The position numbers and the translations under genes were made by a program. A stretch of DNA of 35,963 nucleotides from a virus. The notes under the pieces were generated by a model. It was not told the origin of the DNA. It saw nothing but the letters and a program-made list of their open reading frames with translations, and searched no databases. The DNA lies in the IMG/VR virus record IMGVR_UViG_3300020060_000019, positions 1-35,963 of that record; one strand, written 5' to 3'. This document shows, piece after piece, positions 5,596 through 35,963 of the stretch; within the stretch, counting starts at the first letter, position 1; every line of letters starts with the position of its first letter.

Positions 5596-7578
5596 TCACG
5601 AAATGATTGCGGAAAGGTTGGTGACGATCTCGGAGGCCCCAAGGTCGTTTGGATGGACCGATGCGTCCGCTAGACGGGTCGAACTATTCGTCATCAGCGA
5701 GAGACCGTTGACGAGCGTCGAGTTGCCATCGGCCCAGGCGGTGAAGGCGTTCGACATGGCGGTGCGGAAATTGGCGATCGTGTCGCCATTCGTGTTCGCG
5801 CCCGTGTTGGTCGTGTAGATCGGTGTGATCGCGTAAATCTTGGCCGTTGGCAGCGCGGTTCGCATGTTTTGCAGTTCGGCCAGCACATTGGCCTGATACG
5901 TCGCCAGGGCGACGTTCCCGTTCCAGTCGTTATAGCCAATCATGAGGGTCGCGCGAGACGCGCCACAGCCCGCCAGCGCAGAACCTTGTGAGGGAACGGC
6001 CTGTGCCGAACCGTTCGCGAAGTTCTTCATCTGCCAGCCCTTGGTGGCGGCGACGCCATAGGCCCAGCTGTTGATTTCCTTGCTCGCGATTGCACCGTGA
6101 GTGATACTGTCGCCAGTGAATGCGATGATCGTGGCGGGCCGTGCCGGTGCGATCGAGACGGCCGACCCGATGGACGTCAGAACCTCCAGCAGGTCCATGC
6201 CGGTCCAGTAGGGCCAGATCAGCTCGATCTTGCGGAGCGCGGACGAACCCAGATCGACCGCAATCAGATCGCTGCCGGCGACGTTGTACGCAACGGCGCG
6301 CACGAAGCTGGCCACCTCGACGCCCTCGGCCAGAACCGACGCATAGTCGTAGGAACTTGTCGCGACGTTGCGGGTGACAAGCGTATTCCATCCAACCCGA
6401 AACTGCACATACCGTGCATTCGTGACGAACCCAACGCGCGCTCCAGGCGCGCAATATTGGAAGTTGTTGCCCTCGACGATCGGCCGGATAATTGGCAATC
6501 GCGTGGTCGACTGCTCGCTGATCTCGATGTAATCGGACGCCAGCAATCGAGCATCCATAGGGAATATCGACTGATACTGGGTGACCGCGACGCTTAGCGG
6601 ATCGAACTTGGCACCGCCGGGATAGAACCCCTCGATAATACGACCATCTGCATCCTGAATAGCTGGAATAATACCTTCGGGACTGGCCGGATAATTGGGC
6701 AGCACGGATTCCAGAGCGACCGCACGAGCTTGCAGGGTCGTAATGTCGGATGGTTGAGTACCCAAAGGCGAAAACTTGACCCCGCCCGGATAGACGCCCT
6801 CAAGGACACGACCGTCCGCGTCCTGAATCTCCGGCCAAATACCAGCCGGGCTCGCGGGGACGGGCCCAAGATCGATCACCGCCGTAAGTGCGCCGGCGAT
6901 TGGCATCCTGATTTGCGTCGTATTCGGATTGAGCACTGCCGCTGGCGTGGCCGTCCCGTCGTTCATCCAGCGTGCGAGATAGAGGCTGTCGCTGGTCGGC
7001 GCCCAATATTGGCCGGTGGTCGCGATCAGCGGCGCGAGGACAGCGGTGAGCGTCGTGCCAACTGGCAGCGTTGCGCCCGCCGGATTGGTGATCGTCGGCG
7101 CGCTCGTACCGCCCGTAAGGTTCAGGCCGTTCGTCGGATGGCCATTCGCATCGGTGTGGAAGACGATATGCGCAGCTGTCGAAGTGTCCACGACAAGATC
7201 GGCGATTGCGCCCGTTACCGAGCCGCCCGTAAAGGTCAGGGGATAGGTTCCAGGCGTCGCCCCGGTGATCGCAGTCCCGCCGATCGTGACGCTGGTGACG
7301 CCGCGCGGGAGGGCGGTGGCATGCACGGCGAGGAAGGTGTTGTTGGCGAGGGCTGAGGCGGCCGCCTGTTGGGCGGATAGGTCGGCGGCGGCTCTATCGA
7401 GGCCGGTCTGTGTTCTATCAAGGCCGGTCTGTGTTCTATCAAGGCCAGTCTGGATACGATCGCTGCCGGCCTCACCCGCAATGTTGACCAACTCCGCCAG
7501 CAACGCCGTGGGCAGCGAAGTACCGCCGCCGTCGACGCTGATCGAACCATTCACGACCGTGACATTGACGTCAGCCAT
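5596..7578 (-). CDS. Tail fibre/spike with SGNH-hydrolase (esterase) domain
   Basis: 660 residues. Residues about 40-62 form heptads (DRTQTGL repeated), a probable trimerising coiled coil. A middle beta-rich region contains a 32-residue module present twice (241-272 and 297-328; core IQDADGR..EG.YPGG.KF). The C-terminal domain has SGNH signatures: GDSITHG with nucleophile Ser491, GYND at 548-551, and DASVHPND with Asp638 and His642. The Asp-to-His spacing is one residue longer than the usual DxxH. Likely function: receptor binding and deacetylation of surface polysaccharide. Start ATG 7578 overlaps the previous gene by 8 bp. Confidence 0.88.
   Translation of the reverse strand: MADVNVTVVNGSISVDGGGTSLPTALLAELVNIAGEAGSDRIQTGLDRTQTGLDRTQTGLDRAAADLSAQQAAASALANNTFLAVHATALPRGVTSVTIGGTAITGATPGTYPLTFTGGSVTGAIADLVVDTSTAAHIVFHTDANGHPTNGLNLTGGTSAPTITNPAGATLPVGTTLTAVLAPLIATTGQYWAPTSDSLYLARWMNDGTATPAAVLNPNTTQIRMPIAGALTAVIDLGPVPASPAGIWPEIQDADGRVLEGVYPGGVKFSPLGTQPSDITTLQARAVALESVLPNYPASPEGIIPAIQDADGRIIEGFYPGGAKFDPLSVAVTQYQSIFPMDARLLASDYIEISEQSTTRLPIIRPIVEGNNFQYCAPGARVGFVTNARYVQFRVGWNTLVTRNVATSSYDYASVLAEGVEVASFVRAVAYNVAGSDLIAVDLGSSALRKIELIWPYWTGMDLLEVLTSIGSAVSIAPARPATIIAFTGDSITHGAIASKEINSWAYGVAATKGWQMKNFANGSAQAVPSQGSALAGCGASRATLMIGYNDWNGNVALATYQANVLAELQNMRTALPTAKIYAITPIYTTNTGANTNGDTIANFRTAMSNAFTAWADGNSTLVNGLSLMTNSSTRLADASVHPNDLGASEIVTNLSAIIS
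7393..7455. repeat. Three 21-bp tandem repeats encoding coiled-coil heptads
   Basis: Copies at 7393-7413, 7414-7434 and 7435-7455 differ at only a few bases. Each 21-bp unit encodes one heptad of the sort DRTQTGL inside the tail-fibre gene, so gain or loss of a unit changes coiled-coil length without breaking the frame. Confidence 0.85.
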
Positions 7579-12679: not shown

Positions 12680-13332
12680 GGAATCAGGTCCTGGAGCGCC
12701 ACGACCTTGCTGCCGGCCGGCATGCAATCCGTGCCGATCTCCATCAATTTGGTCTCGGCGGTGACCTGACGCATCAGGCAGCCTGCGCGGCGCAGCGTCG
12801 TGGTCGCCTCGGGGGGCACGATCAGAGTCGGCACCGCGGGCGTGACGGCAAATTCGGCCGTCCCGCTGGCATCGGCCCTGGCCGCCTCGAGCGCACGCAC
12901 CAAGGCGAACTTCTTGCCGCCGCCCCAGACGAAGCTGACATAGTCGCCGACCGACACTACCTGGCCGCGCAACAGGCCGGTCAGCTCGAGCAGCGGCACG
13001 TCGTCATCATTGATCGTCTGCGACCAGGTCGCCGGCGAGGCCGCAAAGGGCCGTCCGCTCTGGTGATAGAGCGGGATCTGACGATCGATATCGAACGCGA
13101 AGATCAACTGCTTCGCGCCGTCCAGGCTATCGACCCACGCCTTCAGGGCATAGGCGTCCGGGATAAGCAGGTTGTTGTAGCCCAGCGTCATCGACCACAG
13201 CGGCGAGCCGGCCGCGACCGAATAGATGCGCCCGCCCGTCTCCGGCGACAGATAGTCGACGCGCGCGGGATCGAAGCCCTGGGAGAGGACGCCGCCCGCG
13301 ATGATCGGTCGCGGGAAGATGATCGACGTCAT
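12676..13332 (-). CDS. Distal-tail-type protein
   Basis: 218 residues, ATGA overlap with the tape-measure stop. The N-terminal part, IIFPRPIIAGGVLSQGFDPARVDYLSPETGGRIYSVAAGSPLWSMTLGYNNL, is typical of the first protein after the tape measure. It includes a region about translation of the phrase SLDGAKQLIFAFDIDRQIPLYHQ and a C-terminal ligand-like beta segment. By position and pattern it should connect the tail tube to the tip. Confidence 0.75.
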   Translation of the reverse strand: MTSIIFPRPIIAGGVLSQGFDPARVDYLSPETGGRIYSVAAGSPLWSMTLGYNNLLIPDAYALKAWVDSLDGAKQLIFAFDIDRQIPLYHQSGRPFAASPATWSQTINDDDVPLLELTGLLRGQVVSVGDYVSFVWGGGKKFALVRALEAARADASGTAEFAVTPAVPTLIVPPEATTTLRRAGCLMRQVTAETKLMEIGTDCMPAGSKVVALQDLIP

Positions 13333-16300
13333 GCGGCGAAGCGCAGAATGTTGCGGCTTTGCGCCTCGGCGATCGCCGCAACCGCGGTCGCCGGCACCTC
13401 GGCGCGCAGCTGCTCGAGCGCCTCGACGACGCGGGCGAGCTGGGCGGCATCGGCGCCAGGCGCGTGGATCGATACCGGCATCGACAACTGCAGCACGTTG
13501 CTCGGCGCGATCGAGCGCGGGCTCGGCAGGCTGGGATAATAGATCGACGCGTCCGGCATGCCGCCCTCGGCGAAGCCCGGCATCCTATTGTCGTTCATCG
13601 CCTCGATCATCGGTCGATATCGCCGCGTTGCCGCAGCGTTCATGATATACTCGCCGTTCGAGACGCGGATCAGGCGCCGCCCGCCATAGACAGCGAGGAT
13701 GCTGTCGGATGTGCCGGTGCCGGCGCCATGGATCTCGCCGCCGCCGGTCGCGTAGCCGGGGATGCCGCCGCGCGCGTATCCGGGCGCGGCCGATGGGTCG
13801 CCGCCGCCGGCGAAGCTGCCGATCAAGCTGACGATGAACTTTTCGAGGTAGATCCGCGCCAGGTCGGCGATGATCTGGTCGGCCATTTTCTTGAAGGCCG
13901 ACCCGACGCTTTCGGTGCCCTCGATGATGCCGAGCAGCCCATCCTCGAGCGACTGCATCCCGTCGGCCTCGACGCTCTTCAGCGCGTCGTTCATGTCGGC
14001 GGTGTTCGCCTTTACCCGGTCGAAATATTGCTGCAGCGGGTCCGCGTTTTGCCTGTCGGTGACCTGGCCCTTCAGATCATATTGCTGGTTGATGCGGCCC
14101 CTCTCGGCACGCGCCGCGTCGCGATCCTTCGGCTTGCTGTTCGGATCGTCGATGACCATCTGCTGGCGCGCGAGCAGCTCCTGGCGCTCGCGCTCGAGGA
14201 TATCGTGCGCGATGCGCAGCCGGTCCTTGCGCGTGGTCGCCAGCTCGGATTGCAGTTGAAGCACCGCGATCTGGCCGTCGAGCTCGGCGCGATCGATCTC
14301 ATATTGCTCGTGCAGGATACGCGACTGCTCGTCGCGAACGGCCGATTCCTCGCGAAGCTCGATCGTCGATGCGTTGAGGCGCTGCAGGATCTCGGCGCGC
14401 GCCGGCGTGATCTTCTTGGCGACGACCAGGTCGTCGATCTCCAGATCGCGCTGCTTCTTCTGCGCCTCGAGCGATTGGAGAGAGACCTGCAGCCGGCCTT
14501 CGGCATTGTCGTTGAGCGCGAGCAGCGACGAGGCGTAGCCGCGCTGCGCCTGGTCGAGCTGGCCCTGATAGGCGCGATCGTCATTCGCCGCGCGACGGGT
14601 GGCGGCATCCTCCTGACGCTGTTGCTGCTCGGCCGATGGACCCTTCTTGCCCCACGCGACGTGATAGATTCGCTGGCCCGGCTCATCCAGGGCCTGGCGC
14701 AACGTAACGCCCGCGGCGCGGAACGCTTCCTTGATCTTGGCGAGGGTCAAACCCGGCGCATAGGCGATGTCCATCGCCTGGCCGCGCTCATGGTCGCTCG
14801 TGCCGGGGACCGCGACGGGCCCAGCATGGCGGCCAGCCTGCTTGTCGTCCCAAAGTTGCTGTTGTCGGGCCGTCGACCTCCAATCGTTGGTGATCCTCCC
14901 GCCGATCGACTCAACAATTGTCCTGGCCTGGGCGAGATTGATCTCGCGGCCGACTTGCTGGTCGCCGCGGTCGTTGGAGCGCTTGGCCTTCTGCGCAACC
15001 TGGATCTCCGCGTCGCGTTGCCGCGTCAAAGCCGTGACCTGCGCCGTCAGCGCGCCGGTCACCTGATGCTCCGCCAGGGCGCGCTGTTTGGCGGCCTCGA
15101 TCAGATCATGATATTTCTTGCGGATTACTTCGATCGGATCGGCAAGTCGCTCACCAACCTCAACGGCCAAATTGGCTATGGTTCCTTCGAGCGCGGCCTT
15201 GGACTTTGCTATCGAAGCTTCGTTGGCCGCCAGCTGATCCTGGAGGGCTGCAACCCGCCCGCTGGACACATCAAGCGAAAGCGCCGCCGTCTCTCCGCGC
15301 TGCCCAGGCCCCTGCGCCCTGGTCTTGTCGATGTTTTCTTGGGCGATCGCCTGCTGCAACAGCGCGGCGGTTACTTCGCGGATCGAGATGACCCGCTTCA
15401 GATTCACCTGTGCGGCGATATTTGCCTGCGCCGCGGCGGATTTTTCCGCCAGCTCCTGCTTCGCCAGCGCCTCGATCTGCGCGTTGATCGCCTCGTTGAC
15501 GCCTTCGACCGTCGTCTTGAAGTGTTCCTTCGCCTGGCGCGCGATATCGGTTGCCGCGGCGTCCTTCTTCAGCTTGTCCTCGGCCGCGGCGAGCGCGCTT
15601 CCCAGCTCGAAGATCTTGCCCACAAACGGCGTCAGGACAACCAGCGCGGCGAGGCCAATCTGCACCCATGGCCCGCCGAGAATACTGAGGAAGCCCTTGG
15701 TGCCGGTCGACATCAGGCCGACGGCCTGAATCACCTGCCCGCTTTGTTGCGCGAATATGGTCAGCGCGGGCGTACCTGCCGAAAATTGCTGGGCCACGTC
15801 CCCAATTTGAAAGGAGAGCTGCTGCATGCCGGCACGGGACGCGCCCGACTGGGTTCGCAACGCCACCTGTCCCGCGGTGGTGACGCCGAGTTCGCGTTGG
15901 ACGGCCTCCAATGCGATCGCCTGGCTGCGGAGCGCGACCGCCTGCTCCTCCGCCCCAAGCGCCGCGGCGCGGGCCGCGACGGCGTAGGTCGATTCGGCGC
16001 TACCGGCCGCGCCGGTGGCGAGCGCCGCGCGCGCGGCCGCGTCAGCGACATGGCCCAGAGCGGCGGCTTGCAGCTCCGCGGCCTCGGCGGCCGCCCGCGC
16101 TCCGTTGACGTTGATGATTTCGGTCGCGGACACGCCATTCGGGGCGTTGAGGACGGATTGCGCGTTTGCCCGGATGTTCGCGAAGGTGCGGCTGTAGGCG
16201 GCCTCGAGCGATCGCGCCGTCACCTCGATGTTCCCGCCGCCGAGCTTCTGGAAGGCCTGCTCGATCTGTTCGGTCGTCGCGATCGCGTCGGTACCGAACT

Positions 16301-16400
16301 CCCGCATGATCGAGCGGCCGGCCTTCATCGCCGTGGCAAGCGGATCGACGGTACCGCCGACCTGCAGGAACAGGTCGCGACGGGACGATGCTGCTCCCAT
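13329..16400 (-). CDS. Tape measure protein with embedded M15 peptidase domain
   Basis: 1023 residues from ATG 16400 (AGAGGAAA upstream). Long Ala/Gln/Glu-rich helices, a hydrophobic pair (FLSILGGPWVQIGLAALVVLTPFVGKIF, about 237-264) and a Gly-rich segment (GYARGGIPGYATGGG) near the C-terminus fit a tape measure that sets tail length. Residues about 488-584 are unlike the rest: VPGTSDHERGQAMDIAY and RIYHVAWG carry the zinc and catalytic residues of peptidase M15 (His537, Asp544, His580). This domain probably cuts cross-links in peptidoglycan during DNA entry. The gene is the largest in the window. Confidence 0.92.
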   Translation of the reverse strand: MGAASSRRDLFLQVGGTVDPLATAMKAGRSIMREFGTDAIATTEQIEQAFQKLGGGNIEVTARSLEAAYSRTFANIRANAQSVLNAPNGVSATEIINVNGARAAAEAAELQAAALGHVADAAARAALATGAAGSAESTYAVAARAAALGAEEQAVALRSQAIALEAVQRELGVTTAGQVALRTQSGASRAGMQQLSFQIGDVAQQFSAGTPALTIFAQQSGQVIQAVGLMSTGTKGFLSILGGPWVQIGLAALVVLTPFVGKIFELGSALAAAEDKLKKDAAATDIARQAKEHFKTTVEGVNEAINAQIEALAKQELAEKSAAAQANIAAQVNLKRVISIREVTAALLQQAIAQENIDKTRAQGPGQRGETAALSLDVSSGRVAALQDQLAANEASIAKSKAALEGTIANLAVEVGERLADPIEVIRKKYHDLIEAAKQRALAEHQVTGALTAQVTALTRQRDAEIQVAQKAKRSNDRGDQQVGREINLAQARTIVESIGGRITNDWRSTARQQQLWDDKQAGRHAGPVAVPGTSDHERGQAMDIAYAPGLTLAKIKEAFRAAGVTLRQALDEPGQRIYHVAWGKKGPSAEQQQRQEDAATRRAANDDRAYQGQLDQAQRGYASSLLALNDNAEGRLQVSLQSLEAQKKQRDLEIDDLVVAKKITPARAEILQRLNASTIELREESAVRDEQSRILHEQYEIDRAELDGQIAVLQLQSELATTRKDRLRIAHDILERERQELLARQQMVIDDPNSKPKDRDAARAERGRINQQYDLKGQVTDRQNADPLQQYFDRVKANTADMNDALKSVEADGMQSLEDGLLGIIEGTESVGSAFKKMADQIIADLARIYLEKFIVSLIGSFAGGGDPSAAPGYARGGIPGYATGGGEIHGAGTGTSDSILAVYGGRRLIRVSNGEYIMNAAATRRYRPMIEAMNDNRMPGFAEGGMPDASIYYPSLPSPRSIAPSNVLQLSMPVSIHAPGADAAQLARVVEALEQLRAEVPATAVAAIAEAQSRNILRFAA

Positions 16401-16444: not shown

Positions 16445-16828
16445 CTAAATCTTAGGGCAGCGGTACCAGGCGGCTGTGTCGGTCGGCGTGTCCACATCAC
16501 CTTCCGTGATCAGCAGGTTATCCCCGTTCCGTTCGAGGCGCAGCGGCTCGTCGGAAAAGTTCAAAAGGCTGACAAAGCGGAAGTGGCCGTAGAAGGCGGG
16601 CGTATCGCTGACGTGGTTTAGTTGAGCTAGATCGAGATAACCGTGTCGCTCATAGAAATCGATGGTGCGCGCGCCGATAGTGACGAAGGCCGGGCCGCGC
16701 TCTTCTTTGCAAATCGCGCGTGAAAGCGCCCAAGTGCCCCGGTAAAAGTCAGGTATATCCTGCCGATCGTGCGGTGGGTCTGACTGCAGCAATGCTGCCA
16801 CCAAGAGGAGAGCCAGAGACTTCACCAC
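16445..16828 (-). CDS. Secreted hypothetical protein in the tail cluster
   Basis: 127 residues starting at GTG 16828. A signal-like N-terminus (VVKSLALLLVAALLQSDPP) leads to a small soluble domain with TWALSRAICKEERGPAFVTIGARTIDFYERHGYLDL and a final RCPKI; the two cysteines could form a disulphide. It sits between the tail chaperones and the tape measure, where no structural gene is expected, and its base use is less GC-rich. It may be a moron acting on the host envelope. No family recognised. Confidence 0.6.
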   Translation of the reverse strand: MVKSLALLLVAALLQSDPPHDRQDIPDFYRGTWALSRAICKEERGPAFVTIGARTIDFYERHGYLDLAQLNHVSDTPAFYGHFRFVSLLNFSDEPLRLERNGDNLLITEGDVDTPTDTAAWYRCPKI

Positions 16829-16862: not shown

Positions 16863-17027
16863 CTACCCCTTGTTCGCCGCCTTGCGCGCTTCGATCAGCG
16901 CCCAGGTCTCGTGTGGCGTGGCCGCCCAGAATTGATCGGCCGTCCACCCGAACCCGTCCATCATCGTTCCCTGGAAGCGGCGCCAGCGCGTGGACTCGTC
17001 TACGCCGTCGCCGCTTTGGCGTTTCCC
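16863..17027 (-). CDS. Tail assembly chaperone T extension, reached by -1 frameshift
   Basis: Reading shifts from the G-like frame at GGGAAAC and continues for 52 residues (RQSGDGVDESTRW...), ending at 16863. The extension contains FGWTADQFWAATPHETWALIEA, the pattern of small alphaproteobacterial tail-assembly chaperones. The G-T fusion would be 184 residues. An independent start (ATG upstream in this frame) exists, but its leader is Arg-rich and unlike protein. By analogy with lambda gpG/gpGT, the fusion binds the tape measure and recruits tube subunits. Confidence 0.75.
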   Translation of the reverse strand, partial: GKRQSGDGVDESTRWRRFQGTMMDGFGWTADQFWAATPHETWALIEARKAANKG

Positions 17028-17416
17028 TCGGCTGACCTTCCGCCGGGCGCGGCGTCGATCAGGCACAAGGTCAGCCGCGCGGTCACCGATGCCATGCCGT
17101 GCTCGAAGATCAGCTGGCCGATGCGCTCGGCGCCGACATGAGCGGTCGCGTCGTCACCCTTCGCCGCGCCCGCCTTGATCAGCTCGGCCGCGATGATGCC
17201 CAGCTCCTGCAGGCCGAGCGCGCCGGCATTGCCGTCGCGCGCCAGCGTGAGCAACGAGGCGCCGCACTGCGCCTCGATCGCGACGATCGCGGCGTGCGAT
17301 GGCCGCAGCACATAATTGGTCCCGGCGAGCGCCAGACTATGCTCGCCGCGTTCCTTGTTGGCCGCGCCGTCTGGGGCGGATGTCGGAGCGCGCCGGCGCG
17401 GGTTACGCGTTGCCAT
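17000..17416 (-). CDS. Tail assembly chaperone G-like protein
   Basis: 138 residues from ATG 17416; GAGGAG abuts this ATG, so ATG 17434, which overlaps the tail-tube gene by 14 bp, is the alternative. The core GEHSLALAGTNYVLRPSHAAIVAIEAQCGASLLTLARDGNAGALGLQELGIIAAELI is the GTA/phage tail-chaperone pattern found between the major tail protein and the tape measure. Most ribosomes should end at TAG 17000; a minority shift frame at 17021-17027. Confidence 0.8.
   Translation of the reverse strand: MATRNPRRRAPTSAPDGAANKERGEHSLALAGTNYVLRPSHAAIVAIEAQCGASLLTLARDGNAGALGLQELGIIAAELIKAGAAKGDDATAHVGAERIGQLIFEHGMASVTARLTLCLIDAAPGGRSAEGNAKAATA
17021..17027 (-). promoter_or_regulatory. Programmed -1 frameshift slippery site GGGAAAC
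   Basis: On the minus strand the heptamer G GGA AAC lies exactly in the zero frame of the G-like chaperone, seven codons before its stop. Slipping back one base gives GGG AAA and opens the T frame. It fits X XXY YYZ and differs from the lambda G/GT site (GGGAAAG) only in the last base. Confidence 0.82.
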
Positions 17417-17420
17417 CTCC

Positions 17421-17849
17421 TCAGGCGATCGCATCGACGGTCGGCGCGGCGGCGATCTTCAGATCGATCTTCGCATCGACGGTGCCGTCCTTGTTGAAGA
17501 CGCGGCTAGTGATGGAGCCGAACACCAGCGCCTTGAAGATGGCGTCGCCTTCTACGCCAGCCAACCCACCCTTGCGCACCTCCCACATGAACGACTGCCC
17601 GGCGTTTACTTTCGCCTCGAGGCGCGCGTACCCCGCGTCCGGAAGGTTGATCTTCAGGTCGAGCGACTGCTTCAACGCGATGTTGCCGAAAGCACCGGTA
17701 TTATACTTGCCGGTCGTCTTGTCGCCGGTATCGATCTCCGACTGGGAGCGGCTCTCGTTCAGAGTGCCCTGGCCGAGCAGGGCGACATAGGCGCCGGGCG
17801 TGGCGGTTTCGATCCACCCCAGATAGTCATTGCCGAGCAGAATCGTCAT
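17421..17849 (-). CDS. Major tail tube protein
   Basis: 142 residues, start ATG 17849 with GGAAGGAA upstream. Pattern of TP901-1/gpV-like tube proteins: LGNDYLGWIETATPGAYVALLGQGTLNESRSQSEIDTGDKTTGKYNTGAFGNIALKQSLDLKINLPD. Such proteins stack as hexamers round the tape measure. Position between tail terminator and chaperones agrees. Confidence 0.88.
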   Translation of the reverse strand: MTILLGNDYLGWIETATPGAYVALLGQGTLNESRSQSEIDTGDKTTGKYNTGAFGNIALKQSLDLKINLPDAGYARLEAKVNAGQSFMWEVRKGGLAGVEGDAIFKALVFGSITSRVFNKDGTVDAKIDLKIAAAPTVDAIA

Positions 17850-35469: not shown

Positions 35470-35963
35470 TGGGCAGGCGCATCGAAAAGCTCACCAAAGA
35501 GCAGCTCGCGGCGCTCCCGGGCTTCCGTGACCACGGTCTGCGGGTCGGCCTGTCGACCACCCCCTGCGATCGCCCGGCAGCCGAGGCGGCGGTAAGGGCG
35601 CATTACGCTGCGCTCGGCCGCCCGGACCCCCGCATCATCGTCTGGCTCGATAGTCCCCACCAGGGCTTGATCGCTGCGTCGCTGCTAAGCGGCGCAGCGA
35701 TCGCTGGTAGTCAGGTTGGGGCTCAGGTTGGGGCTCAGGTTTGGGCTCAGGTTTGGGCTCAGGTTTGGGCTCAGGTTGGGGCTCAGGTTGGGGCTCAGGT
35801 TGGGGCTCAGGTTCGGGCTCAGGTTGGGGCTCAGGTATACCGAGCTGGATACGGCAGTATGGATATGAATTGGGTCGCATGGGCTAAAGCCCATGCGGCC
35901 AATGGCGTCACGCTGCCGGCAGCCGGGCTGACGCTCATCGACATCTGCGAGACGTGCGGATGG
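35469..35963 (+). CDS. Repeat-bearing protein, DUF6745-like (cut by right edge)
   Basis: 165 codons seen, frame still open at 35963. The N-terminal part ([57 protein letters not shown]) resembles the beginning of DUF6745-type proteins, including LSTTP..R..AE and the IIVW.DSP block. Ten QV(G/W/R)A units follow at residues 82-121, then a region with [14 protein letters not shown]. The repeats may form a solenoid. It pairs with the cupin-like gene upstream. Start ATG 35469 shares a base with the upstream stop. Confidence 0.78.
35712..35831 (+). repeat. Ten 12-bp tandem repeats (QV[G/W/R]A)
   Basis: The unit CAGGTTGGGGCT occurs ten times in a row, then degenerates as CAGGTATAC. Only one base varies between units, the first base of the third codon: GGG, TGG or CGG, giving Gly, Trp or Arg. 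Units 3-5 carry Trp and unit 9 Arg; all others Gly. The array keeps frame whatever the copy number. Confidence 0.95.

Follow-up and report, generated by a model that had tools for sequence, protein, structure and literature searches.

A very probable programmed −1 frameshift signal with a conserved downstream hairpin in the tail chaperone genes of a Sphingomonas-type phage and its relatives

In phage lambda, a low level of ribosomal frameshifting yields the tail assembly chaperones gpG and gpGT at a ratio of about 30:1, and the T part binds the tail tube protein; the passages of the source used here also state that frameshifting in certain tailed phages seems to occur without stimulatory signals, and place the g–t frameshift of the haloarchaeal virus HCTV-1 at G_GGA_AAC (PMC5009743). 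Tail chaperone frameshifting has furthermore been reported for most R. capsulatus phages (PMC8601537), and in SEA-PHAGES tail chaperones the ‘fivetwo’ motif is reported to occur solely as GGGGGAA (PRFect, PMC10885494). In E. coli dnaX, the heptamer of a −1 frameshift is followed by a stimulatory stem-loop (PMC7282821). Our search of an open-access literature collection returned no paper on frameshifting in gp10/TAC_6 genes and no hairpin described for a tail chaperone site.

Here, we analysed a viral sequence of 35,963 nt (IMG/VR record IMGVR_UViG_3300020060_000019, positions 1 to 35,963), which we refer to as the window and which belongs to a Sphingomonas-type phage. Upstream of the chaperones are genes for terminase, portal, protease, capsid, head completion and tube proteins, arranged as usual, and downstream is a gene of tape-measure type; the two overlapping chaperone frames, located between the tube gene and the tape-measure-like gene, thus occupy the position of lambda G and T. 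The features are as follows:

17421..17849, minus strand: major tail (tube) protein, upstream (PF06199, E=5.6e-4, under the cut-off)
17000..17434, minus strand: G-like tail assembly chaperone of the GTA-gp10 family, 144 aa (PF11836, E=3.6e-9; phrog_2115, tail protein)
17021..17027, minus strand: zero-frame slippery heptamer, G GGA AAC (71 related loci have an in-frame G GGR RAN at this junction)
17017..17020, minus strand: 4-nt spacer between the heptamer and the first stem base pair (fold of the window)
17002..17016, minus strand: left arm of the stem-loop, AAGCGGCGACGGCGT (fold of the window; covariation in relatives)
16975..16989, minus strand: right arm of the stem-loop, GCGCTGGCGCCGCTT (fold of the window; covariation in relatives)
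16863..17027, minus strand: −1 frame extension, consisting of an acidic linker, an RWRRF block and a T-like, Phage_TAC_6-like domain (PF09550, E=5.3e-4; homologous −1 domain in all loci)
16959..16964, minus strand: ATGATG within the T-like domain, the sole nearby candidate for an independent start (product of 32–33 aa)
13329..16400, minus strand: tape-measure-like protein, downstream (weak Tape_meas_lam_C match, E=0.061; also its length and location)

The G-like ORF scored 37 bits against PF11836 (GTA-gp10) and passed the curated cut-off of 27.8. The T-like extension, with 20.8 bits against PF09550 (Phage_TAC_6), missed the curated cut-off of 23.4, and we therefore call its domain TAC_6-like rather than file it as a member of that family. 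A sequence-profile search of the PDB with gp10 gave no relative, and a Foldseek search with a gp10 model (pLDDT 84) gave no similar solved structure. The locus resembles lambda G/GT in gene order, in the −1 direction, in having an X XXY YYZ heptamer within the C-terminal codons of the G-like gene and in placing a T-like extension ahead of the tape measure gene; it differs in having GGGAAAC in place of GGGAAAG and in its proteins, which are PF11836 and PF09550-like, respectively. The heptamer is identical to the one given for HCTV-1 at the equivalent gene junction, a virus with an archaeal host for which the passages used here describe no hairpin.

A preliminary description of this DNA had proposed a −1 frameshift at GGGAAAC, and its reading of the junction was borne out. 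The heptamer lies in frame before the G-like stop, at 17027–17021 on the minus strand, where gp10 reads gaG GGA AAC, and the gp10 stop TAG follows at 17002–17000, its first base 25 nt after that of the heptamer. The −1 frame has no stop across the heptamer until 16863 and encodes the T-like extension (FWAATPHETW) that had been predicted. The proposed fusion length of 184 residues is correct from the ATG at 17416, and becomes 190 residues if translation begins at the upstream ATG at 17434; the fusion junction would read G-N-R with zero-frame decoding, or G-K-R if the A-site codon is decoded after slippage. The Arg-rich false start anticipated for the second gene is also what a mechanical ORF caller gives (GTG at 17066). 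What that description overlooked is the downstream hairpin and the fact that GGGGGAA is the commonest heptamer of the relatives.

Judged from sequence comparison, the locus very probably carries a programmed −1 ribosomal frameshift of the lambda G/GT type in a tail chaperone pair. Most ribosomes would read gp10 to its stop and produce a short G-like chaperone, while a minority would move back by one base on the G GGA AAC site, with tRNA-Gly and tRNA-Asn re-pairing on GGG AAA and with help from a hairpin located 4–6 nt further on, and would produce a fusion of ~184–190 residues with the T-like domain at its end. If the roles are as in lambda, the G part would bind the tape measure protein, and recruitment of the tail tube protein would fall to the T part.

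Relatives were collected by means of an alignment of gp10 and of its neighbouring genes, from contigs of IMG/VR and from close to 1,080 genomes, the latter representing the genus, the family and the class around one genome of Sphingomonas tagetis with a sister prophage; a single-sequence gp10 query against viral contigs gave no match. We accepted 71 phage or prophage loci as signal carriers (59 distinct and 12 further ones), which fall into 58 clusters at 80% DNA identity, and the T-like domain is present in the −1 frame of gp10 in every one of them. In the collection searched, isolates are represented by one related record, the unannotated phage MT835603, with the heptamer GGGAAAT and the −1 frame PRRRLAGFADAALGW. 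In two loci (L005 and L026), the T-like domain carries on in another frame ~50 nt past the gp10 stop, an apparent indel; these copies may be broken or may contain a sequencing error.

The heptamer was compared among the relatives, as the preliminary description had suggested, and G GGR RAN was found at the junction in all 71 loci accepted as carriers; further upstream in gp10, the first 59 loci have this motif in frame at 5 of 9478 codons. Most loci have GGGGGAA, the window and several others have GGGAAAC, and the remaining forms are GGGGGAG, GGGAAAT, GGGAAAA and GGGAAAG, the last being lambda's own. The two main heptamers, both of them slippery, differ in three of their bases; on GGGGGAA, which is the SEA-PHAGES ‘fivetwo’ motif, tRNA-Glu can re-pair on GGA via a G:U pair, although the SEA-PHAGES cases come from actinobacteriophages and the window itself has GGGAAAC. 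The Gly codon of the slip site is GGG or GGA in 59/59 loci and GGC or GGT in none of the 59, whereas GGC and GGT together make up 545 of the 685 upstream Gly codons of gp10. Likewise, where the following codon encodes Glu it is GAA in 44 of 47 cases, compared with 418 GAG versus 122 GAA upstream. The codon choice at the slip site thus departs from upstream usage, which indicates conservation beyond the need of the protein.

Loss of the heptamer in close relatives keeping both frames had been named as the result that would speak against a frameshift. A slippery form is kept in 71/71 loci, through synonymous changes and changes of heptamer type, and the clear exception is a distant relative, L095, in which the slip site is lost (GGT GAA), the −1 frame has a stop at that place and an ATG lies 3' of the gp10 stop. 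In L095, GCGGCGAAG and CTTCGCCGC can still pair as the arms of a hairpin whose loop contains the ATG. Four further candidates for exceptions (L041, L053, L058 and L070) were rejected, as in each of them gp10 stops later and an in-frame heptamer lies further upstream of that stop.

The overlap is under coding constraint in both frames. Third-position diversity in frame 0 falls from ~0.55 upstream to 0.12–0.28 in the overlap, as would be expected if the same base also opened a translated codon of the −1 frame. In loci with an early end of gp10 (the window, L003, L018–L020, L043–L047 and others), the −1 block before the first ATG is mostly R[WYR]RR.

An alternative to frameshifting would be two separate, translationally coupled genes, the T-like domain being made from its own start as in gene transfer agents (GTAs) and the slip motif and overlap being incidental. 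An ATG overlapping the gp10 stop (in the form TGATG, TAATG or ATGA) could allow coupled re-initiation in 45 of the 71 loci, and L095 relies on an ATG. A conserved independent start, however, which the preliminary description had set against a frameshift, did not emerge, as this ATG is limited to those 45 loci and is absent in the window. Between the slip site and the domain core, there is no ATG, GTG or TTG in 10 of the 71 loci, and in six (L041, L053, L058, L060, L094 and L096) no start codon is present anywhere in the open −1 frame ahead of the core. Frameshifting would therefore be the sole plausible route in these six loci and the only route common to all 71. The window's nearest and only ATGs lie inside the T-like domain: a start at the ATGATG (16964/16961) would omit the conserved RWRRF block, and its Shine-Dalgarno is weak to moderate (−4.9 kcal/mol, ~1 sd below background). 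Across the loci, ATG sites are mostly without a good Shine-Dalgarno, and the slip motif, the Gly/Glu codon choice, the −1 linker and the RWRR/PRRR block are all conserved. Taken with these findings, expression as separate coupled genes alone appears highly improbable for the phage loci.

The case is different for 16 GTA-like loci of the same genus (L072–L087), which speak for coupled genes. Alphaproteobacterial GTA g10 and g10.1 belong to families homologous to those of the window, in the same order and with the second gene in the −1 frame, but none of the 16 loci has a slip motif; their gp10 ends in QILAG[RK] or similar, and most of them have a GTG or ATG that overlaps the gp10 stop or adjoins it. 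In L082 and L087, a G-rich insertion parts the two halves and the −1 frame is still open. From this arrangement we infer that the GTA-like loci express separate, coupled genes.

Frameshifting and re-initiation might also operate together, with the fusion made by frameshift and a short free T protein made where an ATG sits at the gp10 stop, given that slip site and stop-overlapping ATG occur together in 45 loci. We regard this as unlikely: the ATG is dispensable, being absent in L055, L056, L059–L061, L094 and L096 while slip site and domain are kept, the window lacks it, and it encodes the conserved Met of an LMG motif, so that its conservation may be at the protein level only. A frameshift remains our preferred reading of the junction.

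A conserved stem-loop is located a few nucleotides past the heptamer. It has 12–15 bp and opens ~4–6 nt past the slip site (window 17016–16975); in the window, 17016–17002 pairs with 16989–16975 at −23.3 kcal/mol after a 4-nt spacer. Folds of individual loci have a strong stem-loop right after the heptamer, with the first paired base of the minimum free energy (MFE) structure 4–6 nt past it in 35 of 59 loci and, owing to extra outer pairs, at 0–1 nt in the others. The 60-nt windows following the heptamer have a mean z of −2.15, versus −0.31 upstream. For the window alone, the hairpin has a z of −1.4 to −1.7 in 60-nt windows and near zero in longer ones; as these values are modest, the case for the hairpin rests on the relatives.

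Comparisons among the relatives support pairing. When arms were swapped between loci, cognate arms gave −25.5 kcal/mol versus −19.1 for swapped arms (sd 0.48 over permutations), and control windows gave no cognate/swapped difference. The hairpin loci fall into two registers, one codon apart, and in alignments made from sequence alone the paired cells amount to 85% and 88% in the two registers, percentages that are favoured by the assignment of loci to registers through their own best pairing, of which the arm-swap test is independent. Double changes that preserve pairing were found in 40 and 30 cells, compared with shuffled means of 13.4 and 11.0, and 0/500 shuffles were as high, a count that is no probability because the shuffles ignore relatedness. 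In the slid control, which keeps relatedness, moving the partner by one or two columns makes the pairing values drop steeply; a slide of 3 leaves partial pairing, which comes from the repeated GCG/CGC codon make-up. RNAalifold recovered only 5 pairs from the mixed alignment because it combined the two registers, and splitting by register solved the problem. The 12 loci outside the discovery of the pattern gave a cognate mean of −23.2 versus −17.4 for other arms; in L094, L098 and L105 the cognate advantage is small or the rank little above chance.

The position of the stem-loop is that of the dnaX stimulator, 3' of the heptamer, although dnaX is a cellular gene with an A AAA AAG heptamer. The dnaX signal also has a Shine-Dalgarno-like stimulator upstream, which is not consistently present in the relatives of the window, where this candidate was rejected (mean duplex energy of −4.6 at the slip site versus a background of −2.5, sd 2.5 kcal/mol). 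A pseudoknot between the loop and downstream sequence was likewise rejected, cognate pairs having no advantage over swapped ones (−10.29 versus −10.06, sd 0.25), and a search of Rfam gave no match.

From its place and conservation, the hairpin probably acts as a frameshift stimulator. It could instead be a by-product of the two-frame coding constraint or serve transcription or re-initiation: L095 appears to keep it without a slip site, and the GCG/CGC codon make-up by itself pairs partly at slides of 3. The pairing-preserving double changes, however, far exceed both column shuffles and slides of 3, the arm-swap effect is missing from control windows and the stem starts 4–6 nt past the heptamer, close to where a stimulator would be expected, which makes a role other than stimulation rather improbable. 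With a stimulatory hairpin, this lineage would differ from lambda-type sites, which are described as being without stimulators. We put forward, with somewhat less than even confidence, the broader idea that gp10/TAC_6 phages set the ratio of short to long chaperone by the heptamer together with the covarying stem-loop in its two registers, unlike the unaided lambda site, and that the related GTAs use coupled genes without frameshift.

The type of frameshift is already known; the structured signal, with its conserved and covarying hairpin, is a variant worth testing. We believe that these results give strong support to a frameshift signal in phages that have hardly any isolates in the collection searched, so that gene callers will split the fusion or assign it a false Arg-rich start. 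Furthermore, the covarying hairpin offers a testable case of a structured stimulator in tail chaperone frameshifting, and the contrast with the GTA-like loci allows one to test what sets the chaperone ratio without a frameshift.

A departure from the bare tube/G/T/tape measure order is an extra ORF of 127 aa between the T-like and tape measure genes of the window (16445–16828, minus strand), which has a signal-peptide-like start and no match in Pfam, PHROG or NCBIfam. In L003 this place is taken by a different small ORF, which suggests that the position between chaperone and tape measure genes may be an insertion site for extra genes. The tape-measure-like protein (13329–16400, minus strand) contains a VanY-type D-Ala-D-Ala carboxypeptidase domain at residues 502–549. 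Two tandem repeats were observed elsewhere in the window, a 21-bp repeat of 2.9 copies at 7393–7452, in a 660-aa ORF (7578–5596) with QTGLDRT repeats, and, at the end of the record, a 12-bp repeat of 10.5 copies (TCAGGTTGGGGC) at 35711–35836, in an ORF with AQVGAQVW-type repeats.
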